Below, one piece after another: positions 6,143 through 21,746 of a stretch of 64,000 nucleotides of DNA. This DNA is from a bacterium (GTDB lineage Bacteria > ARS69): contig JALGZR010000019.1 of the NCBI GenBank assembly GCA_025774805.1, positions 21,283 to 85,282 on the forward strand, written 5' to 3'. Numbering within the stretch: position 1 is the first letter of the stretch; the number at the start of each line of letters is the position of its first letter. The notes beneath the pieces were generated by a model. That model had not been told where the DNA came from. It searched no databases and worked only from the letters and a program-made list of their open reading frames with translations. Both the position numbers and the translations under genes were made by a program.

Positions 6143-6460
6143 ATGCCGGAGTTCACACACGGAACGATCACGCTCACCGTCGACGAAGATGGATTCATGC
6201 AGGAGCCCGACAAGTGGAACGAAGAGGTTGCGGCTGCTCTTGCGACCACCGAGGCGGTCGAGGATCTCACCGATGACCACTGGAAGGTGGTCAACTACCT
6301 GCGCCAGTACTATCTCCAGTTCGGCGTCGCTCCGATGATCCGGAAGCTGACCAAGGAGACCGGGCTCAACCTGAAGAAGATCTACGAGCTGTTCCCGTCC
6401 GGGCCGGCCAAGGGCGCGTGCAAGGTGGCGGGGCTGCCCAAGCCGACCGGTTGTGTCTGA
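6143..6460 (+). CDS. dsrC: DsrC sulfur-carrier protein
   Basis: A 105-residue DsrC/TusE family protein with the flexible C-terminal arm carrying both redox cysteines, C-X10-C, in GACKVAGLPKPTGCV. Two cysteines mark a true DsrC, which takes sulfur from DsrAB as a DsrC trisulfide that is reduced by DsrMKJOP. The ribosome site AGAGGAGAG precedes the ATG. The gene stands alone between the large palindrome and the sigma-54 promoter region, so it is probably a separate, highly expressed transcript, as dsrC usually is. No clear sigma-70 promoter was found in the 55 bp between the palindrome and the start. Confidence 0.96.
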   Translation: MPEFTHGTITLTVDEDGFMQEPDKWNEEVAAALATTEAVEDLTDDHWKVVNYLRQYYLQFGVAPMIRKLTKETGLNLKKIYELFPSGPAKGACKVAGLPKPTGCV

Positions 6461-6553: not shown

Positions 6554-6571
6554 TGTTACCGGGTCGTAACA
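6554..6571. promoter_or_regulatory. Candidate enhancer (UAS) dyad for sigma-54 activator
   Basis: TGTTACCGGGTCGTAACA has perfect 6-bp inverted arms (TGTTAC/GTAACA) around a 6-bp spacer. It lies about 115 bp upstream of the -12 element of the sigma-54 promoter at 6673, the normal distance for an NtrC-type binding site. The NtrC-like regulator encoded at 18147 is the obvious candidate ligand. I saw only this one copy. Confidence 0.55.
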
Positions 6572-6672
6572 CTCGGAGGCTCCCGCGCCTCGAGCGTCCG
6601 GCACTCGCCCACATCCGTCCGTGCAAGCCGTTGAATTTCAATAAATTGGATGTGCGCCACCGAGCCTGTGAT

Positions 6673-6688
6673 TGGCACGCCGGTTGCA
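6673..6688 (+). promoter_or_regulatory. Sigma-54 (-24/-12) promoter of dsrMKJOP operon
   Basis: TGGCACGCCGGTTGCA matches the RpoN consensus TGGCAC-N5-TTGCA exactly. GG at 6674-6675 and GC at 6686-6687 have the required 10-bp separation. It lies 40 bp upstream of the RsbRD-domain gene that begins the dsrMKJOP operon. The operon ends with an NtrC-family activator, which supplies the trans factor such promoters need. Confidence 0.85.
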
Positions 6689-6727
6689 AAAACTGAACTC
6701 CGCGAAGGACCATCGGAGGAGCCAGTG

Positions 6728-7294
6728 ATGAACCGGCTCGACGGTCTGCAGGAGAGGCGGGCGGCGGTCATCGACCGCTGGAAGGCGCTGACGCTCGCGG
6801 TCTATCCGGAGCGTGCCGCGGAGTTCATCGTCCGGGAGCCCGACCGCTTCCGGAATCCGGTGGGCCACCTGGTGGGCGAGAACCTGGAGATTCTCTACGA
6901 CGGCCTCCTCGCAGATGCGCCGGCGGAGACGATGCGGGCAGCGTTGGACGGCATCGTGCGCATCCGTGCGGTGCAGGACCTCTCCCCCTCAGCCGCGGTC
7001 GGGTTCGTCTTCCTGCTGAAGCAGGCCGTTTGCGAAGAACTGAGCGGGGGTGACGGCGATCCGGCCGCCGAGATCGAGCCCGCCGGGCTCTTCGATCGCA
7101 TCGACCGGCTCGCGCTGCAGGCCTTCGACCTGTTCATGCGGTGCCGGGAGCAAATCTACGACCTTCGCGTGCGCGAAATTCGCGGCCGGGCGCCGAGGCC
7201 GCACACGTCACTCCGGGCGCGCGAGATCGAGGGGACGGAACGGTCCGGAAGCGAGTGGGCCGGTTCCGAGACCAAAGGAGAGGGAGCGGGATGA
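6728..7294 (+). CDS. RsbRD N-terminal-like domain protein upstream of dsrM
   Basis: A 188-residue cytoplasmic helical protein resembling the RsbRD N-terminal (RsbT co-antagonist/globin-sensor-like) domain: an N-terminal helix ERRAAVIDRWKALTLAVYP, a conserved F-x-N-P-VGH segment, and a second helical half. The C-terminal ~45 residues are charged and disordered. Start chosen at 6728 because GGAGGA lies at 6715-6720; the frame itself is open from 6650. It is the first gene after the sigma-54 promoter, and its stop overlaps the dsrM start (ATGA). Similar genes precede dsrM in several sulfate reducers. A regulatory or assembly role for DsrMKJOP is possible but unproven. Confidence 0.7.
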   Translation: MNRLDGLQERRAAVIDRWKALTLAVYPERAAEFIVREPDRFRNPVGHLVGENLEILYDGLLADAPAETMRAALDGIVRIRAVQDLSPSAAVGFVFLLKQAVCEELSGGDGDPAAEIEPAGLFDRIDRLALQAFDLFMRCREQIYDLRVREIRGRAPRPHTSLRAREIEGTERSGSEWAGSETKGEGAG

Positions 7295-8283
7295 GGGCCA
7301 TGATCGCCTTGCTCGCCTTGGCCGTGCTGCTCGGTGTGGTCTGGGCGGGAGTCGGCCTGGCTGGCCAGCGGACCTTGTTCGGAATCGTCATTCCCTACGT
7401 GGCCATTGCCGTGTTCCTGGTCGGCATGGTCTACCGGGTCCTGCTCTGGGCCGGGGCGCCCGTACCGTTCCGCATTCCGACGGTGTGCGGCCAGCAGCGC
7501 TCGCTGCCCTGGATGCGGCGGGACCCGCTGGAGAGCCCGAGCGGGACACTCGAGGCCGTCGGGCGGATGGCCGGCGAGATCCTGCTGTTCCGCTCGCTGT
7601 TCCGGAATACCCGCGTGGGGCTGAAGGGATCGGACCGCGTCGTCTACCACTCGGAGAAGCTCCTCTGGCTCGCCGCCCTGGCCTTCCACTGGTCCTTCCT
7701 CATCATCTTCGTGCGGCACCTGCGTCTCTTCCTCGATCCCACGCCGAGTTTCGTCCATCTCATCGAGGTCGTGGACGGCTTCTTCCAGCTCAGTGTGCCG
7801 GTCTTCTTCCTCTCCGGCGGCCTGATCCTGGTCGCTCTGCTCTACTTGCTCGGGCGGCGCCTCCTGGATGCGCAGGTGCGCTACATCTCACTGCCGACGG
7901 ACTACTTCGCGCTGTTCCTCCTGATCGGTGTCGTGGTCTCGGGCATCTTCATGCGCTACATCACCAAGGTCGATCTGCTCAAGGTGAAGGAGCTCTCCGT
8001 CGGCTTGACGACCTTCCGGCCGGCCCTGCCGGAGGGCATCGGCCTGCCGTTCTACATTCACCTCTTCCTCGTCAGTCTCCTCTTCATCTACTTCCCCTTC
8101 AGCAAGCTCGTCCACATGGGGGGAGTGTTTCTGAGCCCGACGAGGAATCTGGCGAACAACAACCGCAATCGGCGCCACATCAACCCCTGGAACCCCGAAG
8201 TGGAGGTACACACGTACGCCCAGTGGGAAGAGGAGTTCCGAGACAAGCTCGAGGCCTCCGGCATACCGTTGGATGGGAAGTGA
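7291..8283 (+). CDS. dsrM: DsrM, membrane cytochrome b subunit
   Basis: A 330-residue NarI-like diheme cytochrome b subunit of the DsrMKJOP complex, which links the quinone pool to DsrC trisulfide reduction with DsrK. At least five hydrophobic segments are visible, beginning at residue 4 and followed by segments at about 35-55, 130-150, 165-190 and 210-235. Histidines lie in membrane segments, for example LAFHWSFLIIFVRHLRLF and FYIHLFLVSLLF. The true start is 7291: AAAGGAGAGGGAG precedes it and it overlaps the previous stop by 4 bp, although the frame is open from 7141. dsrK follows 6 bp later. Confidence 0.95.
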   Translation: MRAMIALLALAVLLGVVWAGVGLAGQRTLFGIVIPYVAIAVFLVGMVYRVLLWAGAPVPFRIPTVCGQQRSLPWMRRDPLESPSGTLEAVGRMAGEILLFRSLFRNTRVGLKGSDRVVYHSEKLLWLAALAFHWSFLIIFVRHLRLFLDPTPSFVHLIEVVDGFFQLSVPVFFLSGGLILVALLYLLGRRLLDAQVRYISLPTDYFALFLLIGVVVSGIFMRYITKVDLLKVKELSVGLTTFRPALPEGIGLPFYIHLFLVSLLFIYFPFSKLVHMGGVFLSPTRNLANNNRNRRHINPWNPEVEVHTYAQWEEEFRDKLEASGIPLDGK

Positions 8284-8289
8284 TCGGTC

Positions 8290-9906
8290 ATGGAGAAGTC
8301 GCCGCAGGAACTGCTTCAGCTTGACTACCACCCACCCCGGCGGGATTGGATGGATCCCGCCGTCGACTTCGAGGCCCGACGCGGGAGCTGGAGCTATCCC
8401 GGCGTCGGGAAGAACCTCAAGTACATGGGGTACGCCAACCCCCGGGAGTGGTCTCCCACCGATGACGATTGGAAGCTGCCCGACGGATGGCAGAAGATCC
8501 TCCACGAAGGTCTGAAGGAACGCCTCGGCAAGTACCGTTCCCTGCGGGTCTTCCTCGATTCCTGCGTGCGATGCGGCGCCTGCGCCGACAAGTGCCACTT
8601 CTACATCGGATCGGGGGATCCGAAGAACATGCCCGTCCTGCGGGCCGAGCTGCTGCGCTCCGTCTACCGCAACGACTTCACGCTGGCGGGACGCATCCTC
8701 GGCCGGATCGCCGGCGTCCGCAAGCTCACCCCCGACATTCTCAAGGAGTGGTACTACTACTTTTTCCAGTGCACGGAGTGCCGCCGTTGCTCGGTGTTCT
8801 GCCCCTACGGCATCGACACGGCGGAGATCACCATGTTCGCCCGGGAGCTTCTCAACCTCGTGGGACTGAACATCAACTGGGTCGTCGAGCCCGTGGCCAA
8901 CTGCCATCGCACGGGCAATCACCTGAACATTCCGCCGCACACCTTCAAGGACAACATCGAGTTTATCTGCGAGGAGTTGGAGGACGCCACCGGGATCAAA
9001 CTGACGCCCCCCATTAATCGCAAGGGCGCGGAGATTCTGTTCGTCGTCCCCTCGGCCGACTACTTCGCCGACCCCGGCATCTTCACCTTCATGGGCTACC
9101 TGCTGCTGTTCGAGCACATCGGACTGGACTACACGTTGAGCGCCTACGCCTCCGAGGGCGGCAATTTCGGCCTGTTCACCTCCCACGATACCATCAAGCG
9201 GCTCAACTACAAGATCTACGCCGAGGCTAAACGGCTCGGAGTGAAGTGGATCCTGGGCGGCGAGTGCGGTCACATGTGGAGGGTCCTCCACCAGTACATG
9301 GACACCATGAACGGTCCGGCGGACTTCCTGGAGCGTCCGGTCTCGCCGATCACCGGCACGCGTTTCGAGAATGCGGCCTCGACGCGGATGGTCCACATCT
9401 GCGAGTTCACGTCCGACCTGATTCACCAGGGCAAGCTCAAGCTCGATCCCTCGCGCAACGACCGCTGGCGGGTGACGTTCCACGACTCCTGCAACCCGTC
9501 CCGGGCGATGGGCCTCCTGGAAGAGCCGCGCTACGTGCTGCGGAACGTCTGCAACTACTTCCACGAAATGCCCGACAACACCATCCGGGAGCAGACCTTT
9601 TGCTGTGGTGGGGGCGCAGGGCTGGGAAACGACGAGAACATGGAGATGCGCATGCGTGGCGGGCTGCCGCGAGCCAACGCGGTCAAGTTCGTGCAGGAGA
9701 AGCACGGCGTGAACCTGCTCACGTGTGTCTGCGCCATCGACCGGGCGACCCTACCGCCCCTGATGGAGTACTGGGTCCCCGGGGTCGACGTGTCGGGCGT
9801 CCACGAGCTGGTGGGCAACGCCCTGGTGATGGAGGGGGAGAACGACCGCAAGACGGACCTGCGTGGAAACGGCGCGAACGACGAGGAAGGAGGTCCCGAT
9901 GCGTGA
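8290..9906 (+). CDS. dsrK: DsrK, HdrD-like catalytic iron-sulfur subunit
   Basis: A 538-residue cytoplasmic subunit homologous to heterodisulfide reductase HdrD, thought to reduce the DsrC trisulfide. Two ferredoxin motifs are visible (CVRCGACADKCHF near residue 92; CTECRRCSVFCPYG near residue 161). The CCG-type cysteine domains that bind the noncubane [4Fe-4S] site follow: GGECGH, then HDSCNPSR with TFCCGGGAGLG. The C-terminal ~25 residues are polar and overlap the dsrJ start by 8 bp. Ordinary length for DsrK. Confidence 0.96.
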   Translation: MEKSPQELLQLDYHPPRRDWMDPAVDFEARRGSWSYPGVGKNLKYMGYANPREWSPTDDDWKLPDGWQKILHEGLKERLGKYRSLRVFLDSCVRCGACADKCHFYIGSGDPKNMPVLRAELLRSVYRNDFTLAGRILGRIAGVRKLTPDILKEWYYYFFQCTECRRCSVFCPYGIDTAEITMFARELLNLVGLNINWVVEPVANCHRTGNHLNIPPHTFKDNIEFICEELEDATGIKLTPPINRKGAEILFVVPSADYFADPGIFTFMGYLLLFEHIGLDYTLSAYASEGGNFGLFTSHDTIKRLNYKIYAEAKRLGVKWILGGECGHMWRVLHQYMDTMNGPADFLERPVSPITGTRFENAASTRMVHICEFTSDLIHQGKLKLDPSRNDRWRVTFHDSCNPSRAMGLLEEPRYVLRNVCNYFHEMPDNTIREQTFCCGGGAGLGNDENMEMRMRGGLPRANAVKFVQEKHGVNLLTCVCAIDRATLPPLMEYWVPGVDVSGVHELVGNALVMEGENDRKTDLRGNGANDEEGGPDA

Positions 9907-10291
9907 TCGAGGCGCGATCTTCGCGGGGCTCGTCTTCTTCCTCGCTCTGGTCACCTATCCCATCTGGTCGGGCCTGGCGGCCGGCGAGGGCGGGGGGCCG
10001 CCGGAGCTGGTCCTCCCCCCCGAAGGGGAGAAGTGCGTGGAGGAAACGTCCGCCATGCGCACCGACCACATGCAGCTCTTGATGGAGTGGCGGGACGAGG
10101 TCGTACGCGACAACGACCGGATCTACACCACCGCGGACGGACGCCGTTTCTACAAGAGCCTCTCCGGGACCTGCATGAGCTGCCACGCCGACAAGGAGCA
10201 GTTCTGCGACCGGTGCCACAACTACGTCGCGGTGACCCCCTACTGCTGGGACTGCCACGTCGAGCCCCCGGGAGGGCAGCGATGGGATTGA
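9899..10291 (+). CDS. dsrJ: DsrJ, triheme cytochrome c
   Basis: A 130-residue periplasmic membrane-anchored cytochrome with exactly three CXXCH haem sites (CMSCH, CDRCH, CWDCH), as in DsrJ, where one haem has unusual His/Cys ligation. The N-terminal hydrophobic segment (residues ~5-24) acts as an uncleaved anchor or signal. The start at 9899 has a strong GAAGGAGG ribosome site, whereas the frame extends up to 9863 inside dsrK. It overlaps dsrO by 10 bp, so it is translationally coupled. Confidence 0.95.
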   Translation: MRDRGAIFAGLVFFLALVTYPIWSGLAAGEGGGPPELVLPPEGEKCVEETSAMRTDHMQLLMEWRDEVVRDNDRIYTTADGRRFYKSLSGTCMSCHADKEQFCDRCHNYVAVTPYCWDCHVEPPGGQRWD

Positions 10292-11055
10292 AGAGGAGAG
10301 CGTTCTGCAGGCTCGCCGGACTCGGCACGCTGGGGATGGCCGGAGTTCCGGCCGGCCGCGCACTCGGGGAGAAACCGCGGTCCTCGCCGGAGGACGTGAG
10401 AGAGCCGATCCTGGGCAAGCGGTGGGCCATGGTCGTCGATCTGCAGGCGTGCCGCAAGAAGGAGGGCTGCCGGGACTGCATCGCCGCGTGCCACGAGGCC
10501 CACAACGTTCCCGACCTCGGCCATGAGAAGCACGAGGTGAAGTGGATCTGGAAGGAGCCGTACGCGGAGGCGTTCCCCAACCAGCACCACGACCACATGC
10601 CGCACCACATGCAGCACGAGGCGACGCTGGTCTTCTGCAACCACTGCGACGAGCCGCCCTGCACGAGGGTCTGCCCCACGCAGGCCACCTGGAAGCGCGA
10701 GGACGGCATCGTGATGATGGACTGGCACCGGTGCATCGGTTGCCGCTACTGCATCGTGGCCTGCCCATACGGTTCGCGCAGCTTCAACTGGCGGGATCCC
10801 CGACCCTACATCGAGGAGATCCGCCCCGATTTCCCCACCCGGAGCCGCGGCGTCGTGGAGAAGTGCACGTTCTGCGACGAACGCCTGTCCAAGGGGCGAC
10901 TTCCGGCGTGCGTGGAGGCCTGTACGACCCGCTGCCTCGTCTTCGGCGACCTGGAGAACCCGGACTCGGAAGTCCGAAAGCTCTTGGCCACGCGTCACGC
11001 CATTCGTCGGAAGCCCGGCCTGGGCACCGGGCCCGAAGTCTACTACCTGGTATGA
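10282..11055 (+). CDS. dsrO: DsrO, periplasmic ferredoxin subunit (Tat-exported)
   Basis: A 257-residue iron-sulfur protein with a twin-arginine signal at the N-terminus (LKRRAFCRLAGLGTLGMAG). Four [4Fe-4S] clusters are expected from CRDCIAACHEAH, CNHCDEPPCTRVCP, CIGCRYCIVACPYG and CTFCDER...CVEACTTRC. It pairs with the NrfD-like DsrP and passes electrons on the periplasmic side. The frame is open from 10033, but the ATG at 10282, overlapping the dsrJ end, gives the proper Tat signal. Confidence 0.95.
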   Translation: MGLKRRAFCRLAGLGTLGMAGVPAGRALGEKPRSSPEDVREPILGKRWAMVVDLQACRKKEGCRDCIAACHEAHNVPDLGHEKHEVKWIWKEPYAEAFPNQHHDHMPHHMQHEATLVFCNHCDEPPCTRVCPTQATWKREDGIVMMDWHRCIGCRYCIVACPYGSRSFNWRDPRPYIEEIRPDFPTRSRGVVEKCTFCDERLSKGRLPACVEACTTRCLVFGDLENPDSEVRKLLATRHAIRRKPGLGTGPEVYYLV

Positions 11056-11062
11056 GGTGACT

Positions 11063-12220
11063 ATGCTGGAGAAGGCGTTCTCGGGAGGTCGCAGATACTG
11101 GGGCTGGATCGGCTTCCTGCTGCTGGTGGTGGCCGCCGGCGGCTACTCCTACCTGCACCAGCTCGGTCACGGCCTGGGGATCACCGGCTTGAGCCGGGAT
11201 GTGACCTGGGGCTTCTACATCGCACAATTCACCTTTCTCGTCGGCGTGGCGGCCTCCGCGGTGATGGTGGTCTTGCCCTACTACCTGCATGACTTCAAGG
11301 CCTTCGGACGGGTCGCGATCCTCGGAGAGCAACTGGCCATCGGGTCGGTGATCATGTGCGTGCTGTTCATCACCGTCGATCTCGGGCAGCCGGGCCGCAT
11401 GGTCAACATGCTGCGCCACCCGTCGCCGCGCTCGATCCTGTTCTGGGACATGATCGTTCTCAACGGCTACCTGCTGCTCAACGTGATCATCTCGCGCGTG
11501 AGCATGAACGCGGAGCGCAACCGCACGCCGCCCCCCGGGTGGATCAGGCCGGTGATCCTGCTCTCGATCCCCTGGGCGCTCAGCATCCACACCGTCACGG
11601 CGTTCATCTACTCCGGACTCGCCGCACGGCCCTTCTGGATGACGGCGATCCTCGCCCCGCGATTCCTGGCCTCGGCCTTCTCGTCCGGCCCGGCACTGCT
11701 GATTCTCCTCTGCCTGGTGCTCAGGCGATTCACGCGCTTCGACGCCGGCTGGGACGCGATCCAACAGCTGGCGGTGATCGTGACCTACGCCGTCCTGACC
11801 AACGTCTTCTTCGTTCTGACGGAGTTCTTCACGGCCTTCTACAGCGCCATTCCCGAGCACGTGGAGCACTTCCGCTACCTCTACCTGGGATTGGATGGGC
11901 ACCACGAGCTGGTGGCCTGGATGTGGCTTTCGGCCGCTCTGATCATGGTCGCCGCGGTGATCCTGGTGAACCCGGGAACGCGGCGGGCGAAGACGCCGTT
12001 GACGTTCGCCTGCATTGCAGTGGTCGCCTCGATCTGGATCGAGAAGGGCCTCGGCATGATCGTGACCGGTTTCGTGCCGTCTCCCCTGGGCAAGGTGACG
12101 AGCTACGCTCCGACGATCCCCGAGGTGTTGATCACGCTGGGCATCTACGCGGGCGGTGCGCTGGTCGTCACCATGCTCTACAGAATCACCCTATCCCTCC
12201 GGGGTGAGTTGCGAACCTGA
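11063..12220 (+). CDS. dsrP: DsrP, NrfD-like quinone-interacting membrane subunit
   Basis: A 385-residue polytopic membrane protein of the NrfD/PsrC family with about ten hydrophobic helices. It forms the second quinone-interacting module of DsrMKJOP together with DsrO. Recognisable segments include ITVDLGQPGRM and the following LFWDMIVLNGYLL helix, typical of DsrP. The ATG at 11063 is preferred over the GTG at 11057 because GAGG lies 5 bp before it. It follows dsrO by 7 bp and ends 11 bp before the next gene. Confidence 0.94.
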   Translation: MLEKAFSGGRRYWGWIGFLLLVVAAGGYSYLHQLGHGLGITGLSRDVTWGFYIAQFTFLVGVAASAVMVVLPYYLHDFKAFGRVAILGEQLAIGSVIMCVLFITVDLGQPGRMVNMLRHPSPRSILFWDMIVLNGYLLLNVIISRVSMNAERNRTPPPGWIRPVILLSIPWALSIHTVTAFIYSGLAARPFWMTAILAPRFLASAFSSGPALLILLCLVLRRFTRFDAGWDAIQQLAVIVTYAVLTNVFFVLTEFFTAFYSAIPEHVEHFRYLYLGLDGHHELVAWMWLSAALIMVAAVILVNPGTRRAKTPLTFACIAVVASIWIEKGLGMIVTGFVPSPLGKVTSYAPTIPEVLITLGIYAGGALVVTMLYRITLSLRGELRT

Positions 12221-12231
12221 CCGAGGTGCCC

Positions 12232-13905
12232 ATGACCGAGCGTCGCCACACAGTCCTGATCGTGGGCGCCTCTGCCGCCGGACTGCGCTGCGCCTGCCGC
12301 CTGGCACGCTTGCGGCCGGACTGGCGGATCCGGGTCCTGGAGGCGCGGGCGACCTTCTCCTACGCGGCCTGCGGCCTGCCCTACGTGCTCTCCGGCGACA
12401 TCGCCGACCCCCAGGCCCTGCGGCGCACCGTCTACGGAGTGATCCGGGACACCGCGTACTTCGCGGGACACAAGGGCGTGGAGGTCCTCGCCGGCCACCG
12501 CGTCCTTGCCATCGACACGCAGCGGCGTGCCTTACGAGCCGAGGGACCGGATGGCGAGTGCGAGCTGGGCTGGGACGAGCTGGTGCTGGCCACCGGCGCC
12601 CGGCCCCGCCGCCTGCAGGAGCAGCCGGATCATCCACGGGTCGTCTCGTTTCACCGCTGGGATGATCTCGAACCGCTGCGCCGGGGGCTCGCAGAGGGCC
12701 GGATCGACCGCGTCGCGATCGTGGGCGCCGGCCCGGTGGGCTGCGAGCTGGCCGAAGCGTTTCACAGTCTGTGGGGAGCGGAGGTGGTTCTGCTCGAGGA
12801 AGCGAGTGCCCCGCTCCCCGGAATCCTCGACCCGGACGTGGCAACGTGTGTCGCGGGACACCTTCGAGCGAACGGCGTGGAGCTAGGGCTCGAATCCCCG
12901 GCTCGGCGCATTGAGGTCGTCGGCGAGCGAGTGGCTCTCACCGTGGCAGACGGAACGGTCGAGGCCGACGTGGCCGTCGTGGCCGTGGGTGTGCAGCCCG
13001 CCGTCGAGCTGGCCCGCGAGGCCGGGATCAAGCTGGGGACCGGCGGAGCCATCGCCGTCGACGAGCGTCTGGCCACATCGGCGCCCCACGTGTGGGCCGC
13101 CGGTGACTGCGCCGAGGTGCACCACGCTGTTCTCGGTGAGCCCGTGTCTCTCCCGCTGGGCTCGCTGGCGAACCGGCAGGGCCGCACCCTGGCCGAAATC
13201 CTCGCGGGCCGCCCGGACCGCTTCCCCCCGGTGGCCGGAGCCGTTGCTGTCAAGGTCTTCGACTGCAACGTGGCGGCGACGGGTTGCACCCTGTCCCGGG
13301 CGCGGGAACGCGGGCTGCAAGGGCGTGCCGCCTGGATCACCGTCGAGGATCGGGCGCACTACTGGCCCGAGGCCGAGCTGATGCACCTCAAACTGGTCTA
13401 CGAGACCGGCTCGCGCAGGGTGCTGGGAGTCCAGGCCGTGGGGAAGGGTGACGCCGTCAAGCGCGTGGACGTGGCCACCCAGCACATCGCGGCCGGGGGT
13501 ACCCTCGACGATCTCGCTCACGTGGAGCACTCCTACGCCCCGCCTTACGCTCCCGCCATGGATCCGCTGGCCGTCGCCGCACAGGTGGCCCAGAACCAGG
13601 AGGACGGCATCGAGGCCGCGGCGCCCGACGAGGCTCTCGACGACGGCACGCGCATTCTCGACGTGCGGCTGGCGGAGGAGTCGGCGGCCCGCCCCGCCTT
13701 CCCAGACCGGGCGATGCACGTCGCTCTGGGCGAGCTGTCGAGCCGGCTCGACGAGATTGACCCTGCGACGGGGCTCGTCGTCTGCGAGCGGGGGACACGA
13801 TCGGCCGAGGCGGTCCGCCTGCTGCGGCGGCAGGGCATTCGCGCGCGCTATCTCGGCGGCGGACTTCGCTGGCGCGCTCTGGTGGAAGAGAGTGGGGCCT
13901 CATGA
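12232..13905 (+). CDS. CoA-disulfide/persulfide reductase with C-terminal rhodanese domain
   Basis: A 557-residue flavoprotein of the CoADR/Nox family. The FAD motif is LIVGASAAGLR at residues 8-18, the active-site cysteine is Cys47 in SYAACGLPY, and the NAD(P) motif is VAIVGAGPVGCELAEAF near residue 165. The dimerisation domain is followed by a rhodanese domain (residues ~465-555) whose catalytic loop is CERGTRS. This architecture matches CoADR-RHD/NADH-dependent persulfide reductases, which reduce persulfides or polysulfide with NADH. Embedded between dsrP and the siroheme gene, it may recycle persulfides of CoA, thiols or DsrC. GAGG precedes the ATG at 12232; an in-frame GTG at 12226 is the alternative. 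Confidence 0.85.
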   Translation: MTERRHTVLIVGASAAGLRCACRLARLRPDWRIRVLEARATFSYAACGLPYVLSGDIADPQALRRTVYGVIRDTAYFAGHKGVEVLAGHRVLAIDTQRRALRAEGPDGECELGWDELVLATGARPRRLQEQPDHPRVVSFHRWDDLEPLRRGLAEGRIDRVAIVGAGPVGCELAEAFHSLWGAEVVLLEEASAPLPGILDPDVATCVAGHLRANGVELGLESPARRIEVVGERVALTVADGTVEADVAVVAVGVQPAVELAREAGIKLGTGGAIAVDERLATSAPHVWAAGDCAEVHHAVLGEPVSLPLGSLANRQGRTLAEILAGRPDRFPPVAGAVAVKVFDCNVAATGCTLSRARERGLQGRAAWITVEDRAHYWPEAELMHLKLVYETGSRRVLGVQAVGKGDAVKRVDVATQHIAAGGTLDDLAHVEHSYAPPYAPAMDPLAVAAQVAQNQEDGIEAAAPDEALDDGTRILDVRLAEESAARPAFPDRAMHVALGELSSRLDEIDPATGLVVCERGTRSAEAVRLLRRQGIRARYLGGGLRWRALVEESGAS

Positions 13906-13963
13906 ACCGAAATGTCACGCGAAGAGGATGGACGTTGCGCGAGGAATGCGGGGAGGCGAACTG

Positions 13964-15766
13964 ATGTTTCCGGCCATGCTGCACCTTACGGGCAAGTGCT
14001 GCCTCGTCGTCGGTGCCGGCGGCGTGGCGTTACGCAAGGTCCAGGGCCTGATGGCGGAGGGCGCGCGTGTCCACGTGGTGGCCCCGGAAGTCGTCCCTCA
14101 GCTCGAGACGCTGGCCGAGTGCGGGCAGATCACCCTCGCGAGACGGGCGTATCGCTCAAGCGAGGCCGCGGACTACGTCCTGGTCTTCGCGGCGACGAAC
14201 CGGAGAGAGGTGAACCGGAAGGTGTTTGAGGACGCGAGCCGCGCCGGGGTCTGGGTCAACTCGGCGGACGACCCCGAGCACTGCAGCTTCCACCTCCCGG
14301 CCCGCGTTCAGCGGAACCCACTCCAGATTGCCATCGCGTCCGGCGGGGAAGTTCCCTTCGCCGTCCGGCGGCTCCGACAGCTCCTGGAGCAGCGCTTTGG
14401 CCCGGAGTGGGGCGAGTGGATCGAGGCGGCCTCCCGCTTTCGCTCGCGCGTTCTCGGGATGGGTGTTGATGCGGTGGAGCGGGAAGCGTGCTTCAGCCGC
14501 TTCTTTGACGCCACCGTGGACCGTGAACGCCTCTCGGCAAGGGTCCCGACGGAGTCGGAGCAGGCGGAGTGGACCGGGGTGAAGACCGCGGGTGAAGGGC
14601 GTGCCGAGGAGCCATCGCGCCAGCGATCGGCCGCCGGCCAGAGGGAGCGGACGGGAGAACGGGTTGCCCCGGTCTCCCTGGTAGGGGCCGGGCCGGGGTG
14701 CGCGGGGCTCCTGACCCTCCGCGGCCGGGAGCGGCTGATGGAGGCGGATGCGGTTGTCTACGACCGGCTCGCGGCTAGCGCGCTGCCGTGCGACCTTCCG
14801 CCGCAGACGGAGCTGCATTGCGTGGGAAAGACCCCGGGACGCCACCCGGTGCCGCAGGAGGAGATCACCGCATTGCTCGTCCGCTTGGCGCGCGAGGGCA
14901 AGAGAACCGTCCGCCTGAAGGGCGGTGACCCTTACGTCTTCGGACGTGGAGGAGAAGAGGCCGAGACGCTGCACGCCGAGGGTATCCCGTTCGAGGTGGT
15001 TCCCGGCGTCAGCTCAGGCTTCGGTGCCACGGCCTGGGCGGGAATCCCCGTCACGCACCGGGGAGAGGCCGTGCGGGTCACCCTGCTCACCGCCCACGAG
15101 TGTATTAAGAGGAAGGGCCCTCAGGTCCGCTGGGACCTGCTCGCACAAGATCCTCATTCCACCCTCGTCGGCTACATGGGCGTGGCCACGCTGCCGCAGG
15201 TGGCGAAATCGCTCATCGCCGGCGGCATGGATCCGGCCACGCCGGCGGCGATGATCGAGCGGGGAACCGTGGCCACCCAGCGGACCGTGATCTCGACGCT
15301 GGACGATCTTCCCGAGGCAGTCATTCGCGAGGGGCTGCAGGCGCCGGCGTTGTTCGTCATCGGACCCACCGTCGGGCACGCCGACGTACTGAACTGGTTC
15401 GATGCGCTCCCGCTGGCCGGGGAACGACTGGTCGTCCCCGGGGGCGCCTCCGAGTTGACGCGGGACCTGGAGGCAGCCGGCGCGGAGATCGTGGCGGTGC
15501 ATCCTCCCGTGTCACCGGCGGCGCGAGTAGTCATTGCCGCAGCACCGCTCACGGGCTGTGTGCTGCGGAGCCCGGCAGAGGTCGAAATGCTGGACGAGGA
15601 GCGCCAGGCATCGGGTTGGGAGAGGGATCCCGTGACCTGGTGTCTCGGTGGCGAGACCGCCGAGCGCGCGCGGAAGCTCGGCTGGCAACAGGTCCGGCAG
15701 GTCGACGAGGGCATCGGCGGTCCGGAATTGGCCGACGTGATACGGGGACGGGAGTATGCGGCATAG
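13964..15766 (+). CDS. cysG: Siroheme synthase fusion: SirC + SUMT + short HemD-like domain
   Basis: A protein of about 600 residues making the DsrAB cofactor. The N-terminal precorrin-2 dehydrogenase/ferrochelatase carries the NAD motif VVGAGGVALRK (residues ~1-200). The uroporphyrinogen-III methyltransferase begins VSLVGAGPGC near residue 240 and contains LKGGDPYVFGRGGEE and VVPGVSS. After residue ~480 comes a 120-residue segment with HemD-like features (RLVVPGG start, LRSPAEVEML, later GGETAERARKLGW), only half the normal HemD length. Acidobacterial dsr loci carry separate siroheme genes here (called dsrV/dsrW). The start at 13964 has GGGAGG 7 bp upstream; the frame is open far upstream. 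The end overlaps the next gene by 11 bp. Confidence 0.88.
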   Translation: MFPAMLHLTGKCCLVVGAGGVALRKVQGLMAEGARVHVVAPEVVPQLETLAECGQITLARRAYRSSEAADYVLVFAATNRREVNRKVFEDASRAGVWVNSADDPEHCSFHLPARVQRNPLQIAIASGGEVPFAVRRLRQLLEQRFGPEWGEWIEAASRFRSRVLGMGVDAVEREACFSRFFDATVDRERLSARVPTESEQAEWTGVKTAGEGRAEEPSRQRSAAGQRERTGERVAPVSLVGAGPGCAGLLTLRGRERLMEADAVVYDRLAASALPCDLPPQTELHCVGKTPGRHPVPQEEITALLVRLAREGKRTVRLKGGDPYVFGRGGEEAETLHAEGIPFEVVPGVSSGFGATAWAGIPVTHRGEAVRVTLLTAHECIKRKGPQVRWDLLAQDPHSTLVGYMGVATLPQVAKSLIAGGMDPATPAAMIERGTVATQRTVISTLDDLPEAVIREGLQAPALFVIGPTVGHADVLNWFDALPLAGERLVVPGGASELTRDLEAAGAEIVAVHPPVSPAARVVIAAAPLTGCVLRSPAEVEMLDEERQASGWERDPVTWCLGGETAERARKLGWQQVRQVDEGIGGPELADVIRGREYAA

Positions 15767-16670
15767 TGCCCCGGCGGTCGCCGCGCTGCTCCTCCTGCTG
15801 GCCTGCCCCTCGCTGGCACAGCGAGAGACGGAGCCGAAGACCAAAGAGGATCCGCTGCTATTCGGGGTTGTGAGCTTCTACCATCCGCGGCTCATGTTTC
15901 TCAAGTACGGGCCGCTGGTTGACCACCTGAGCGAACACACGGGACGGCACTGGGAGCTGAGACTCAGCGCCACCTATGAGCAGACGGTCAGCGAGCTGTG
16001 CTCCGGCCGCCTGACTGCAGCCCACCTCGACCCCCTGACCTATGTCCGAGCCCACGCCGCGTGCGGCGCCGAGCCGGTGGCGCGCTTGAATACCGGTGGA
16101 CGGGAGACCCATCTCAGCTACATACTGGTTCGCGAGGAAAGCCCGATTCGGAAGCCGGCCGACCTGAGAGGCAAGCGGATCGCTTTCGGCTCGGCGCTGT
16201 CCACGTCCTCCCACCTGGTGCCCCGCGCCATCCTAGTGCAGGCCGGGCTGGCACCTGGAAGAGACGTGTCCTGCTCCTATCTCGAGCACCATGAGGAGGC
16301 GGCGCGTGCGGTGGAGCAGGGAGAAGCGGACGCCTGCGGCGTGCGCGACATCGTCGGTGACCGCTTCCTGAAAAGAGGTCTTCGCCTGCTGGTGAAATCC
16401 GACCCGATCCCGAACTCCCCCGTCGTCGTCGCCCCCGGTGCGGCGGCCGGCGTGCGGCGGTCGCTGGCGCGCGCTCTCGTCGACCTCCCTCGGGAGGATC
16501 CGGCCATGGCGAAGATCATGGCCACCTGGGACCGGGAACTAGCCGACGGGTTTGCACCCGCAACCGATGCCGATTACGACGACATCCGCGACCTGGCCAG
16601 AGAGGTCCTGGGAGCGAGGGCGCTGACGCTTCCCGAGGAAACCCTGCGATGCGCGGGGTCCCGTTCCTGA
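15756..16670 (+). CDS. PhnD-like periplasmic substrate-binding protein (sensor partner)
   Basis: A 304-residue exported protein with an N-terminal signal peptide (AAVAALLLLLACPSLAQ-like region, residues ~5-22). It is of the phosphate/phosphonate-binding PhnD type: FGVVSFYHPRLMFLKYGPLVDHLSE, AAHLDPLTYVRAHA, the hinge DLRGKRIAFGSALSTSSH, and AVEQGEADACGVRDIVGDRFL. No transporter permease or ATPase is nearby. It lies directly upstream of a histidine kinase gene (1-bp gap). PhnD-like domains are fused to sulfur-oxyanion sensor kinases such as TtrS, so here it is probably a separate ligand-binding subunit for the kinase. The ligand is unknown; sulfite or another sulfur oxyanion is a guess. Confidence 0.8.
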   Translation: MRHSAPAVAALLLLLACPSLAQRETEPKTKEDPLLFGVVSFYHPRLMFLKYGPLVDHLSEHTGRHWELRLSATYEQTVSELCSGRLTAAHLDPLTYVRAHAACGAEPVARLNTGGRETHLSYILVREESPIRKPADLRGKRIAFGSALSTSSHLVPRAILVQAGLAPGRDVSCSYLEHHEEAARAVEQGEADACGVRDIVGDRFLKRGLRLLVKSDPIPNSPVVVAPGAAAGVRRSLARALVDLPREDPAMAKIMATWDRELADGFAPATDADYDDIRDLAREVLGARALTLPEETLRCAGSRS

Positions 16671-16671
16671 G

Positions 16672-18150
16672 ATGTCGAGACTCGGCCTCAGAACCAGGTT
16701 CTTCCTCTATTCCAACACGCTGATCGTCGTCACGATGACCATCGTGGCGATTATCGCCATCGCCCACGAGCGGCGCTCACGCTACGAGGCTGTCGAGCGC
16801 CGGGGACGGAGCATCTGCGAGGCGATGGCCATCCACATCACCGACGCGCTGATGTACGAGGACCTCGAGCTGCTGATGAATCGCGGGCTAATCGACAGTT
16901 TCATCTCCGAGATCCAGATGCTCAACCAGGATTTCATGCGATACGTGATCGTGGCGGATCCCGACGGTCAGGTGACGCACTCCGACGAGTGGCAGCTGCT
17001 GGGCAAGAGCCTCGACCGGGCGCTGGGCCAGAGCGCCGTGGGCCAGGCGCCCCTGGCGGAGATCCGCGAGAGAGAGGGGGACGAGCGGGTCCTCGAGGTC
17101 AGCAGCCCACTGAGCATCTCGACCAAGTTCTGGGGCTCCTTGATCGTGGGGTTCTCCTTGCAGCAAGTTGAGGACCGGGTCCAGCAAGTTGCCTCGCGGG
17201 TCGTTCAAGTGGCCATCTTGCTGCTGGTTGGCAACTCGGCCATGACGGCCATCTACGTCGAGACCCTGATCCGGCCGATCCTCGATCTTCACCGGATGAT
17301 GAAGCGTGCCGCGCGCGGGGACCTTGCAGCCCGCGCCCAGACACGGTCCAGCGCGGCGGAGGTGGGAGAGCTGGCGAAGCAGTTCAACCGCATGATGGAC
17401 GATCTGGAGGAAGCCAACGAGCGGGAGAAGGTCCGACAGGCGCAGCTCGCGCACACGGAGAAGATGGCTGCCGTCGGCACACTCGCGGCCGGTGTGGCCC
17501 ACGAGGTGAACAATCCCCTGGGCGGTGTCCTCGCGTGTATCGAGAACATGAGATCCAACCCCGACGATAGCGAGCTGCAGAGTCGCTATCTGGGATTGAT
17601 CCGGGACGGACTCGAGCGAATCGAGCAGACAGTGGCCAACCTGCTGGATTTCTCGCGGCACGGGACCATGGAGCTGGCGCCGACCTCCGTCAACCACACG
17701 TTGCGGCACGTCACGGAGCTGGTCCAGTACCAGCTCCGCAAAGGCGGAATCGCGGTCCGCTGGGCTCTCGACCCGAAAGACCCGTACGTGATGGCCGATC
17801 ACTTCCGGTTGGAGCAGCTCTTTCTCAACCTTGTGCTCAACGCGCTTCAGGCCATGCCGGAAGGAGGCGATCTGACGTTACACACGCGCCACAAGGATGG
17901 AACGGTCATCGCCGAGGTTCGCGACACGGGCGTCGGTATCCCCGATGACGTGCGGGATCGGATCTTCGATCCATTCTTCACGACCCGGGAGGTTGGCGAG
18001 GGGACTGGGCTCGGGCTGACCGTCAGCGACACCATCGTGACCTCGCACAACGGCACGCTGGAGATGGAGAGCGTGGTCGGCGAGGGGTCGGTCTTTCGCA
18101 TCATGGTCCCGTTGCTGGGCCTGGGAGCGGAGGGAGAAGACGTAGGGTGA
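16672..18150 (+). CDS. Sensor histidine kinase of sigma-54 two-component system
   Basis: A 492-residue membrane kinase. TM1 covers residues ~10-31, an extracytoplasmic region follows to ~175, TM2 covers ~177-198, then comes a HAMP linker. The HisKA domain has phosphoacceptor His277 in GVAHEVNNPLGG, and the HATPase domain shows N-box NLVLNALQAMPEG, DTGVGIPDD and GEGTGLGLTVS. This NtrB/AtoS-like class normally partners NtrC-type regulators, and the next gene (4-bp overlap) is one. The sensor region is short and has no recognisable ligand pocket, fitting a model in which the preceding PhnD-like protein senses the ligand. Confidence 0.92.
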   Translation: MSRLGLRTRFFLYSNTLIVVTMTIVAIIAIAHERRSRYEAVERRGRSICEAMAIHITDALMYEDLELLMNRGLIDSFISEIQMLNQDFMRYVIVADPDGQVTHSDEWQLLGKSLDRALGQSAVGQAPLAEIREREGDERVLEVSSPLSISTKFWGSLIVGFSLQQVEDRVQQVASRVVQVAILLLVGNSAMTAIYVETLIRPILDLHRMMKRAARGDLAARAQTRSSAAEVGELAKQFNRMMDDLEEANEREKVRQAQLAHTEKMAAVGTLAAGVAHEVNNPLGGVLACIENMRSNPDDSELQSRYLGLIRDGLERIEQTVANLLDFSRHGTMELAPTSVNHTLRHVTELVQYQLRKGGIAVRWALDPKDPYVMADHFRLEQLFLNLVLNALQAMPEGGDLTLHTRHKDGTVIAEVRDTGVGIPDDVRDRIFDPFFTTREVGEGTGLGLTVSDTIVTSHNGTLEMESVVGEGSVFRIMVPLLGLGAEGEDVG

Positions 18151-19529
18151 GGAACCAAAGGCGCCGACTGCTGATCGTGGAGGACGAGCCGCTGCTCGGG
18201 GTGGCCATCGCGGATGCGCTGCGCCAGGAGGGGTGGCTCGTAGATGTTGCCGAGGACGGAATCATGGGAGAGGCGCTGTTCAAGAAACATGCCCCCGAGC
18301 TGGTCCTCGTCGACCTGGTCATGCCACAAATGGACGGGATGGAGCTGCTGCGTCGAATCAAGGCCTCGGATCCCCAGTGCACCGTCGTGATGATCACGGC
18401 TCACGGATCCGTGGAACGGGCGGTGGAGGCCATGAGACACGGGGCGGCCGACTTCATCACCAAGCCGTTCCGGATGAACCAGCTCATCGTCCGCCTGGAG
18501 AATGTCTGCTCCATCCGCTCGCTTCGCGAGCAGAACGTGCGCCTGCAGGAGCAGCTGGAGCGCCGCTACTCCTTCTCCAAGATCGTGGGCAAGAGCAAGG
18601 AGATGCAGCGGGTCTTCGAGCTGATCCGGGTGGTGGCCGACTCGGAAGCCAGCGTGCTGATCCACGGAGAGAGCGGGACCGGCAAGGAGATGGTGGCCAA
18701 CGCCATCCACTACAACTCGTCTCGCCGTGCGAAGCCGTATGTACGCGTGAGCTGCGCCTCGCTTCCCGAAACGCTCATCGAATCGGAGCTGTTCGGTTAC
18801 GAGAAGGGGGCCTTTACCGGGGCCAGTCAGCGTCGCATCGGGCGGTTCGAGGCGGCCAGCGGGGGAAGCCTGTTCCTCGACGAGATCGGCGATCTGCCCA
18901 TGACCTTTCAGATGAAGCTGTTGCGTGTGCTCCAGGAGCGGCAGATCGAGCGGCTGGGCTCCCATCACCCCATCGATGTCGACGTGCGGGTCATCTCGGC
19001 TTCGCTGCGTCCCCTGGAGACCGAGATCGTAGAGGGTCGCTTCCGGGAGGATCTGTTGTTCCGGATCAACACCGTCACGATTCACGTTCCTCCCTTGCGG
19101 GACAGGCGCGAGGACATCCCGCTGCTGGCCCGGACCTTCCTGGAGGAGTTCGAGCGCGAGCGGGACAAGCAGATCGAGGGGTTCACCGACGAGGTCCTCG
19201 ATCTCTTCGACGCCTATGGCTGGCCGGGCAACGTGCGTGAGTTGCAGAATGTCGTCGAGCGTGCGGTGCTGTTCTGCGGAGGCCCGCGCATCACCATCGA
19301 GGAGCTTCCGGCCTCCTTGCGAGGAACCGTCGCAGAGCCTCCTGACGTCCCCGAGCAGGGGGGGGTCGTCTCCCTGGTGGAGGCGGCCGCGCGGGCGGAG
19401 ATCGATGCAATCCGAGCGGCGCTGACGGCCTCCGAGGGGCGCCGGATGGAAGCGGCTCAGCTCCTGGGAATCAGCCGCAAGACCCTCTGGGAGAAGATGA
19501 AGCACTACGCCATCTCCGTGGACAGCTGA
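18147..19529 (+). CDS. NtrC-family sigma-54-dependent response regulator
   Basis: A 460-residue regulator. The receiver domain (residues ~7-120) has the phosphorylated Asp in LVLVDLVMP. The AAA+ domain shows Walker A GESGTGKE, the sigma-54 contact loop GAFTGA and Walker B LFLDEIGDLP. The C-terminal Fis-type helix-turn-helix is MEAAQLLGISRKTLWEKMK. GTG start overlapping the kinase stop by 4 bp. It activates RpoN promoters by ATP hydrolysis. The perfect -24/-12 site at 6673 and dyad at 6554, at the head of the same gene run, make the dsrMKJOP operon its probable target and suggest autoregulation. It is the last gene of the run. Confidence 0.94.
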   Translation: MRNQRRRLLIVEDEPLLGVAIADALRQEGWLVDVAEDGIMGEALFKKHAPELVLVDLVMPQMDGMELLRRIKASDPQCTVVMITAHGSVERAVEAMRHGAADFITKPFRMNQLIVRLENVCSIRSLREQNVRLQEQLERRYSFSKIVGKSKEMQRVFELIRVVADSEASVLIHGESGTGKEMVANAIHYNSSRRAKPYVRVSCASLPETLIESELFGYEKGAFTGASQRRIGRFEAASGGSLFLDEIGDLPMTFQMKLLRVLQERQIERLGSHHPIDVDVRVISASLRPLETEIVEGRFREDLLFRINTVTIHVPPLRDRREDIPLLARTFLEEFERERDKQIEGFTDEVLDLFDAYGWPGNVRELQNVVERAVLFCGGPRITIEELPASLRGTVAEPPDVPEQGGVVSLVEAAARAEIDAIRAALTASEGRRMEAAQLLGISRKTLWEKMKHYAISVDS

Positions 19530-19737: not shown

Positions 19738-20187
19738 ATGGCCGGGGAGAAAGACATACTGATCGTGGACGACACCGAGGAAACCGTGGTCTTCATGGCA
19801 CAGATCCTCGAAGACCACGGCTTTCAGTTCCGGATCGCCAAGAACGGCAATGAAGCGATGGCGGCCATGGGCGAGAAACGGCCAGATCTGGTCCTGCTGG
19901 ACGTCATGATGCCCCGCAAGAGCGGAATCAACGTATTCAACGACATGAAGAGAGATCCCCAGTTGGCCGACATTCCGATCATCATCATCACGGGAGCGGC
20001 AACGGTGACCGGAGTGAGTCTCAGGAACGGCACCCAGGAACCCAAGAAATCCTACGGAGATGATTTCGTTCGCAGCCTGGGCTCCGTGCTGTACGAGAAG
20101 CTGAAGGATCTCGAGGTGGACGATCTCCTGGAAAAGCCGATCGAACCGCAACTGCTGATCGAGAAGATCAACAGGTTGCTCGCCTAG
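19738..20187 (+). CDS. Single-domain response regulator (receiver only)
   Basis: A 149-residue CheY-like receiver: acidic pocket ILIVDDTEE, phosphoacceptor Asp in LVLLDVMMPRKSG (residue ~58), conserved Thr in IIIITGAA and Lys in LLEKPIEP. Between the Thr strand and the last helix it has an unusual ~30-residue insertion (around RNGTQEPKKSYGDDFVRSLG). There is no output domain, so it would act by protein contact. AGGAGGTGA precedes the ATG. It sits 35 bp upstream of the diheme sensor kinase and is its likely partner. Confidence 0.88.
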   Translation: MAGEKDILIVDDTEETVVFMAQILEDHGFQFRIAKNGNEAMAAMGEKRPDLVLLDVMMPRKSGINVFNDMKRDPQLADIPIIIITGAATVTGVSLRNGTQEPKKSYGDDFVRSLGSVLYEKLKDLEVDDLLEKPIEPQLLIEKINRLLA

Positions 20188-20222
20188 AACAACTCCGCAG
20201 CTTCAGGGGGCAATCACTCCTC

Positions 20223-21746
20223 ATGACCGAGATGCCCGACAGCCGCGCACCATCGAACGAACCGGTCCCCGGTCGCGCTCCGACCATTCAGCGCCGGATT
20301 CTGGTCCGGTTGGTACCGCTGCTGATCGTGATCTTTGCCATCGTTCTGTACTGGCTCGGCACGAACCTCCAACGGACCCTGTATGCCGCAAACCTCGAGA
20401 TCGCCCGGAACTCCAATCTCATGGCGGTCTACGCGGTCGAAACCTCGATGAACACGGTCGACGTCCATCAACCCTGGGATCTCATCACGCAGAGGATTCC
20501 GCGGTCCGAAGGGACGGATATCGAGATCATCGGCACGAACGGCGTCGTTTTGTTCTCGACCGTTCCGACAAAACGCGGAACCGTCTACGATCTCCGAGAT
20601 CCTTCGTGCTCGGAGTGCCACCCCGGGGGATCATCACGCGCGACTTCCGAGACGACCTTCATCAGCACTCCGAGGAGCGTCCGGGAGCTCGTTTTTGCCG
20701 CACCCTTGCGAAACGCGGAAGACTGTCAGAGCTGTCATGCGGCCCAGGGAAACAAGCTCGGCATGGTCATGGTTCGGCAATCTCTGGATCCGATCGACGA
20801 CCAGATCCGCATCATCCTTGCCGGCATCGCCGTCGCCGGCGGGATCGCCCTCCTGATGACCATTCTGACGACTCGCGTTCTTCTCGGACGCTACCTGGGC
20901 CGCCCGCTCCACAGACTGTTGGCGGGCGCGGAGGCGATCGGGGCAGGCGATCTCCAGCACAGGGTCGAGTTACCCGACCGCACCGAGCTCACGTTGCTGG
21001 CCGACACGCTCAACGAGTCCACAGAACGGTTCGCACGTCTGCACAAGGAGCTTCTGCAGCAAGAACGTCTGGCGGCCGTCGGCGAAACCGTCGCGGGGCT
21101 GGCTCACTGCCTGAAGAACCTGCTCAACGGTCTGCGCGCGGGGCAATATGTCATCGATCGAGCCGTGGAACTGGACGACGCCAAGAAACTACGTACGGGC
21201 TGGCGTGTCATGAAGAAGGGCGTCGGGCAGGTCGAGCAGCTTACCTTCGACATGCTCTACTACATCAAGGAGCGCGAACCCGAACTCAAGCCCACCAACC
21301 CCAACCAGATTGCCATGGAGATCATCGACCTGCTGAGCGAGTCGGCCGGCGCGCAAGACGTTCATCTCCAGGCGGATCTGGACCCGGTCATCGGTTCGGT
21401 GGCGCTGGATCGGACGCTGATCTACCGGGCCCTGCTCAACCTGGTGACCAACGCCATCGACGCGTGCACGGAATCGGAGACCGGAGACCGAGTCATCTTC
21501 AGGAGCCGGATTGCCGCTCCGGACAAGATCGTCCTGACGGTCGAAGACAACGGCATCGGCATGTCCAAGGAAATCCAGTCCATGCTGTTTACACGTTTCT
21601 TCTCCACCAAGTCGGCCCGCGGAACGGGCCTGGGACTGTCGGTGGTCAAGAAGATCGCCGAGGAACACGGCGGCAGCCTGGATTTCGAATCAGAGCCGGG
21701 CAAAGGCTCAGCCTTCCACATCCACCTTCCGCTATCAGGCGGTTAG
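20223..21746 (+). CDS. Diheme c-type sensor histidine kinase
   Basis: A 507-residue membrane kinase. TM1 spans residues ~26-46, a periplasmic domain (~47-196) carries two haem c attachment sites, C129-S-E-C-H133 and C168-Q-S-C-H172, and TM2 spans ~197-218, followed by HAMP. The H-box is divergent, GLAHCLKNLLNGLRAG (His295), in place of the usual H-E-x-x-N-P. The ATPase domain is intact (NLVTNAIDACTES, DNGIGM, GTGLGLSVVKK). Haem in the sensor domain suggests it reads redox potential, oxygen, NO or an electron-transport partner. It is downstream of a receiver-only protein. The link to sulfite respiration is contextual. Confidence 0.9.
   Translation: MTEMPDSRAPSNEPVPGRAPTIQRRILVRLVPLLIVIFAIVLYWLGTNLQRTLYAANLEIARNSNLMAVYAVETSMNTVDVHQPWDLITQRIPRSEGTDIEIIGTNGVVLFSTVPTKRGTVYDLRDPSCSECHPGGSSRATSETTFISTPRSVRELVFAAPLRNAEDCQSCHAAQGNKLGMVMVRQSLDPIDDQIRIILAGIAVAGGIALLMTILTTRVLLGRYLGRPLHRLLAGAEAIGAGDLQHRVELPDRTELTLLADTLNESTERFARLHKELLQQERLAAVGETVAGLAHCLKNLLNGLRAGQYVIDRAVELDDAKKLRTGWRVMKKGVGQVEQLTFDMLYYIKEREPELKPTNPNQIAMEIIDLLSESAGAQDVHLQADLDPVIGSVALDRTLIYRALLNLVTNAIDACTESETGDRVIFRSRIAAPDKIVLTVEDNGIGMSKEIQSMLFTRFFSTKSARGTGLGLSVVKKIAEEHGGSLDFESEPGKGSAFHIHLPLSGG

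Follow-up and report, generated by a model that had tools for sequence, protein, structure and literature searches.

The window analysed here, a 64-kb stretch (64,000 nucleotides) of contig JALGZR010000019.1 from the assembly GCA_025774805.1 of an ARS69 bacterium, carries dsrMKJOP with dsrAB, dsrC, dsrL and dsrN nearby, that is, a dissimilatory sulfite reductase (dsr) gene cluster, and this report concerns the cluster, its sigma-54 promoters and enhancers, and the regulatory genes at its end. The gene run at 6728–19529, all on the plus strand, opens with an rsbRD-like gene (6728–7294; RsbRD_N domain, Pfam PF14361), followed by dsrM (7291–8283; PF02665, 66% identity to its closest relative), dsrK (8290–9906, assigned by synteny), dsrJ (9899–10291) and dsrO (10282–11055), both assigned by synteny and homology, and dsrP of the NrfD family (11057–12220; PF03916). 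Behind these lie genes for a CoA-disulfide-reductase-like FAD/NAD oxidoreductase (12226–13905; TIGR03385, below cut-off) and a siroheme synthase of the CysG type (13928–15766; NF007922, above cut-off; start codon at 13928, 13946 or 13964). The run closes with three genes whose products we call X, S and R: a periplasmic oxyanion-binding protein of the PhnD/PtxB/AioX type, our proposed sensor (X, 15756–16670; PF12974), a sensor histidine kinase with sCache_3_2, HAMP, HisKA and HATPase domains (S, 16672–18150), and a sigma-54 activator of the NtrC/AtoC type (R, 18147–19529), which has the receiver, the AAA+ domain with GAFTGA and the Fis-type helix-turn-helix of an NtrC-type activator. The oxidoreductase has a conserved position in regulator-bearing dsr clusters, and its C-terminal stretch looks rhodanese-like by eye, with no Pfam match.

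Neighbouring genes of this run overlap by up to 11 bp or lie no more than ~58 bp apart, the widest gap standing before the siroheme synthase gene, and no terminator-like hairpin was found on the plus strand of 6728–19529, which bears out the almost gap-free run claimed by an earlier reading of the sequence (the original prediction). That reading also had the run end in a GAFTGA regulator and its kinase; both are present, but the kinase precedes the regulator. Its picture of a single unit was incomplete, as it did not mention the PhnD-like protein and the run is one of three promoter units at the locus.

The sigma-54 (-24/-12) promoter TGGCACGCCGGTTGCA (6673–6688, plus strand) stands 55 bp upstream of the rsbRD ATG (6728) and carries the -24 GG and -12 GC with the correct spacing. 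Its motif, TGGCAC-N5-TTGC, occurs once in the window on both strands, where 0.03 occurrences are expected, and the site scores 19.8, against 12.6 for the second-best sigma-54 site and 13.2 for the 99th percentile of shuffled 300-bp maxima, making it the sole strong one in 64 kb; five other genomes have it at the orthologous position. The enhancer, or upstream activating sequence (UAS), is the dyad TGTTACCGGGTCGTAACA (6554–6571, plus strand; TGTTAC-cgggtc-GTAACA), which has GTT-N10-AAC architecture, starts 119 bp upstream of the -24 element and has no second perfect copy across the whole 5.1-Mb genome. The perfect RpoN promoter and the dyad some 115 bp upstream of it, as first proposed, are thus both upheld, and the genome encodes RpoN itself (E = 3.7e-64). 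Between the two elements lies an IHF-like site, TTTCAATAAATTG (6636–6648, plus strand), with one mismatch to WATCAANNNNTTR.

The same design recurs twice more in this genome. The upstream unit that ends in dsrC (6143–6460, plus strand; PF04358) and includes dsrL (1680–3410, plus strand) within a dsrA-L-N-C arrangement has its own promoter and UAS 1.58–1.69 kb before the window start: the sole one-mismatch match to TGTTACCGGGTCGTAACA in the 5.1 Mb, TGTTACGGAAGGGAAACA, lies upstream of dsrA and just beyond the window edge, 111 bp upstream of the sigma-54-like TGGCATGAGTGTTGCT, at a distance of 141 bp from the dsrA start. Before yeiH, the gene ahead of dsrA, CGTTACGAGAAGGAAATG and TGGCACGAGCGCTGCA form a third pair, 108 bp apart. 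A combined pattern for UAS and promoter, GTTAC-N6-GWAA-N85-115-GGC-N8-TGC, matches the own genome three times, at yeiH, dsrA and rsbRD, with no match in a reversed control of that genome; at the background rate, the chance of three matches inside 10.5 kb is ~4e-11. Other sigma-54-like sites in this genome (C9, C50 and C270) come without an enhancer and were set aside.

Three further features of the upstream region are recorded here. TGTTGC-TTT-GCAACA (L090 19712–19726, before the window), a perfect inverted repeat and a possible extra operator, shares bases with the -12 element of the dsrA promoter. Between dsrB and dsrL lies the gene for a conserved 155-aa protein (L091 4961–5428), ferritin-like by eye with no Pfam match, which is found in most regulator-bearing genomes with a visible dsrB-dsrL region. 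The first 85 bases of the contig (G000:C105; G000 being the own genome) are the end of an ATP sulfurylase gene, a fragment whose match falls just below the family cut-off, and sulfate activation may belong to the same locus as the dsr genes.

Regulator and sites also occur together across genomes. Orthologs of R were found in ten other genomes at 68–73% identity, and nine of these fall in a sample of 396 genomes from the phylum of G006. The combined pattern is present in 9/9 sampled genomes with an ortholog versus 78/387 without (Fisher p = 8.5e-7); the nine hold 19 matches, against ~2.2 expected, and the 387 others hold 95 (table count). Together with the own sequence, the eleven regulators form one clade with 100/99 support, apart from same-genome paralogs, and DsrA of the nine regulator-bearing genomes with a visible dsrA groups at 94/93; the two clades fit joint inheritance, with poorly resolved branching inside each. 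Genes for dsr proteins lie in the same stretch as the regulator in G000, G387, G301, G363, G085 and G151 (in the last from dsrJ on). Elsewhere contig ends limit the view to cysG-X-S-R, with or without the FAD protein gene, in G005, G006 and G089 (without it in G006, with it in G089), to X-S-R in G230 and to S-R in G269, where a dsrL-like fragment follows further on.

In the own genome, the regulator gene is followed after a 208-bp gap by genes at 19738–21746 for a receiver protein standing alone and for another kinase, which carries two C-x-x-C-H motifs. Two Zixibacteria loci (L073, L075) have genes resembling these between dsrC and rsbRD; in G005 and G006 such genes follow the regulator in divergent orientation.

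Conservation at the rsbRD-dsrM pair itself, which had been proposed as a check, gave a divided answer. The -24/-12 element and dyad are absent before rsbRD in all 80 closest dsrM loci, but of nine genomes that carry the regulator and show the region before rsbRD, 6/9 have the pair there (G000, G387, G301, G085, G151 and G230), the remaining three (G005, G006 and G363) having it before yeiH or dsrA instead. Absence in the 80 loci was dropped as a refutation, since G007–G009, searched as whole genomes, have no close regulator ortholog and G005 and G006 carry their pair before yeiH. The loci of these two genomes (L003, L004) are the two closest dsrM loci and share the gene order; their regulator ortholog (68–70% identity) is preceded by the FAD protein, siroheme synthase, PhnD-like protein and kinase, and overlapping contigs show yeiH directly before dsrA. 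Their pair before yeiH consists of CGTTAC-N6-GAAACG with TGGCCCGAGGGTTGCT. The dyad with up to one mismatch is absent in both because half-sites and flanks differ there, and relaxing it to GTTAC-N6-GWAA recovers their enhancer. Across ten genomes (~44 Mb) the combined pattern has five matches, every one at a dsr locus; G007–G009 have none.

The genes behind the sites reach beyond dsrMKJOP. Pairs precede dsrA in the own genome, G387, G151, G269, G085 and G363 (the last with one enhancer mismatch); yeiH in the own genome, G005, G006, G230 and G269; the ATP sulfurylase gene sat in G363; a group with a DsrK-like iron-sulfur protein gene in G301 and G151; porin-like genes in G269, G363 (again a one-mismatch enhancer), G230 and G301; and, in G269, a cytidylate-kinase-like/TSUP transporter gene pair named by eye from its translation. 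One further match, G089:C348, has no gene assigned to it; its -24/-12 is weak, a reading frame overlaps it, and chance is the probable cause. The 22 distinct UAS/promoter pairs from regulator-bearing genomes give an enhancer consensus GTTAC-N6-GWAAC and a promoter consensus TGGCAYR-N4-TTGCW, in which the core letters are set by the search pattern and carry no independent evidence, while the flanks and the spacing are independent; UAS centre and -12 element are 94–125 bp apart. An IHF-like site with at most two mismatches occurs in 13/22 of the spacers, against 17% in shuffles, which is only suggestive of IHF involvement.

Two other groups of dsr loci have comparable elements in other arrangements. 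In five Desulfosporosinus loci, TGGCAC-N5-TTGC occurs ~7.5–8 kb upstream of rsbRD-dsrM (near 1735 in L045, L050, L064 and L070; near 440 in L055), with an NtrC-type gene nearby in at least three. Nitrospirota-type loci (L015, L017, L019, L029, L046, L049, L059 and L060) encode a kinase together with an NtrC-type regulator ~4–5 kb upstream of dsrC on the opposite strand, the regulator being 38–39% identical to that of the window.

Protein X matches PtxB (7.7e-30), ArrX (2.2e-19) and AioX (8.8e-10) in the PDB. Aligned with them, it has the STS-H oxyanion motif described for PtxB (PMC5700983) and keeps most of the Tyr ligand residues; in place of the capping Tyr, the window protein has Ser, and its relatives have Phe or Tyr there. 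Its gene adjoins those of the kinase and the AtoC-type regulator in the own genome and seven others, the gene order of an XSR module, and in these eight genomes it stands between cysG and S, with STS-H intact in seven and SVSSH in G230. The 22 pairs likewise show the site arrangement of such a module, GTT-N10-AAC upstream of an RpoN promoter. We found no usable account of sulfite binding by PtxB in the literature, and a similarity search for AioR and AioX in plasmids gave no record named aio among the matches listed.

Together, these data make it very probable, as judged from sequence and by analogy, that the dissimilatory sulfur regulon is under a dedicated AioXSR-like three-component sigma-54 system, which itself belongs to the regulon. 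In our model, X would bind an oxyanion in the periplasm, probably a sulfur oxyanion and perhaps sulfite; loaded X would trigger S, as in AioXSR, and S would phosphorylate R. Phosphorylated R would then bind the GTT-N10-AAC enhancers, centred ~95–125 bp upstream of the -12 element, and open sigma-54 RNA polymerase through its GAFTGA AAA+ motor, perhaps with bending by IHF. Three promoters of one design would respond, before yeiH, before dsrA (dsrA-B-L-N-HEAT-TPR-C) and before rsbRD-dsrMKJOP-FAD-cysG-X-S-R, and with X-S-R at the end of the third unit, self-amplification of the system is to be expected. Comparative genomics, through the 9/9 versus 78/387 co-occurrence, thus gives good support to the proposal of a single autoregulated sigma-54 unit with its own NtrC-type system, but the proposal was drawn too narrowly: further sites stand before dsrA, yeiH, sat and the genes for porins and transporters.

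Several points weigh against this model and lend some force to its rivals. That promoter and dyad are chance look-alikes is extremely improbable: TGGCAY-N5-TTGCW alone is indeed no commoner in the own genome than chance predicts (5 matches versus 4 in the reversed control), but its conjunction with the enhancer exceeds chance by far and is found again at orthologous positions, a conservation that contradicts this explanation. Before the 396 genomes were searched, the pattern had been refined on an initial set of five sites that included one from G006, which leaves 8/9 as independent. The sites could also be real and yet be read by a different NtrC-type activator, given that 13–25 NtrC-type paralogs per genome (E <= 1e-60) are present in the five genomes tested. 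We think this improbable, as presence of the R ortholog predicts the pattern and the enhancer is built like that of AioR, which serves as regulator in the known three-component system nearest in design. A case can further be made for dsrMKJOP being transcribed mainly by read-through from the dsrA-to-dsrC unit, the rsbRD promoter being merely additive, since G005, G006 and G363 have no pattern match before rsbRD and seem reliant on the yeiH or dsrA promoter. For the own genome, where the dsrC-rsbRD gap measures 267 bp and holds a near-perfect promoter, we consider this rather unlikely, and control by the same system would hold even with read-through because the upstream promoter has the same enhancer.

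A further rival concerns the role of X as sensor. In G387 and G085, S-R directly follow cysG with no X gene between, so X may not be strictly needed beside S-R, or may be encoded elsewhere; moreover, the kinase has its own extracytoplasmic sCache_3_2 domain. S might therefore sense its signal, or a redox cue, directly, with the PhnD-like protein as an accessory or a transport relic, an explanation that we take seriously while finding it doubtful in view of the retention of X between cysG and S in eight genomes and of STS-H in seven. More generally, the sequence shows promoters, enhancers, gene order, ortholog conservation and the co-occurrence of regulator and sites, whereas that R binds the DNA, what X binds, which way the signal runs and that the units are transcribed as proposed are inferred. 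The host assignment also calls for caution: the own assembly is a metagenome-assembled genome with 5% contamination, its own-phylum comparison comprises five genomes, and dsrM is absent in the other four. The contig could be mis-binned, which would alter the host and not the system.

The three-component model has a wider form, on which we are evenly divided: that a sulfur-oxyanion-sensing XSR sigma-54 system runs a lineage-wide sulfur regulon in the sampled genomes of one phylum, probably Acidobacteriota, and in the window's lineage, switching sat, sulfite reduction, outer-membrane porins and oxyanion transporters jointly and amplifying itself. No dedicated signal-transduction control of dsrAB and dsrMKJOP would have been known before it. 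Genes and transcripts of dsr are frequent field markers of sulfur cycling, yet little is understood of how dissimilatory sulfite reductase genes are controlled. A dedicated set of promoter, enhancer, activator and sensor, together with a defined regulon and a candidate receptor for an oxyanion, makes it possible to ask what these bacteria sense before they commit to sulfur respiration, and the DNA signature can be used for finding more regulon genes in uncultured lineages.

Sigma-54 control of dsr had been put forward as undescribed, and a search of titles and abstracts for dsr with sigma-54 found no description; the search covered open-access literature only and leaves priority unproven. Term searches of genome papers on acidobacteria or sulfate reducers likewise turned up no such regulator. 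For Desulfovibrio vulgaris, the published sigma-54 regulome also has sigma-54 promoters before putative sulfate exporter (PSE) and TSUP transporter genes, and no dsr gene or sulfite reductase is mentioned there (PMC4641369).

Among known systems, the phosphite-binding proteins PtxB and PhnD share their family and the STS-H motif with X, but they belong to ABC transporters, whereas X sits with a kinase and a regulator. ArrXSR, which serves arsenate respiration, provides in ArrX a close solved relative of X; its regulator in Chrysiogenes, however, is of the CitB type without AAA+ (PMC5908839), unlike the AtoC-type sigma-54 activator of the window. The closest parallel is AioXSR, with ArxXSR, in which a PhnD-type binding protein, a sensor kinase and an AtoC-family sigma-54 activator lie beside respiratory genes and control an RpoN promoter (PMC5908839, PMC6011840), which reads TGGCACAACGATTGCA in NT-26 (PMC6011840); the AioR binding consensus, GTT-N10-AAC (PMC5335332), is fitted exactly by the window dyad. 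The likeness lies in gene makeup, the homology of X and the site consensus. In contrast to AioXSR, X-S-R of the window terminate a dsr operon, and instead of molybdoenzymes their predicted targets are a siroheme-dependent sulfite reductase, dsrMKJOP, sat and transporters. Should X prove to bind a sulfur oxyanion, the XSR family of arsenic sensing would extend to the sulfur cycle.

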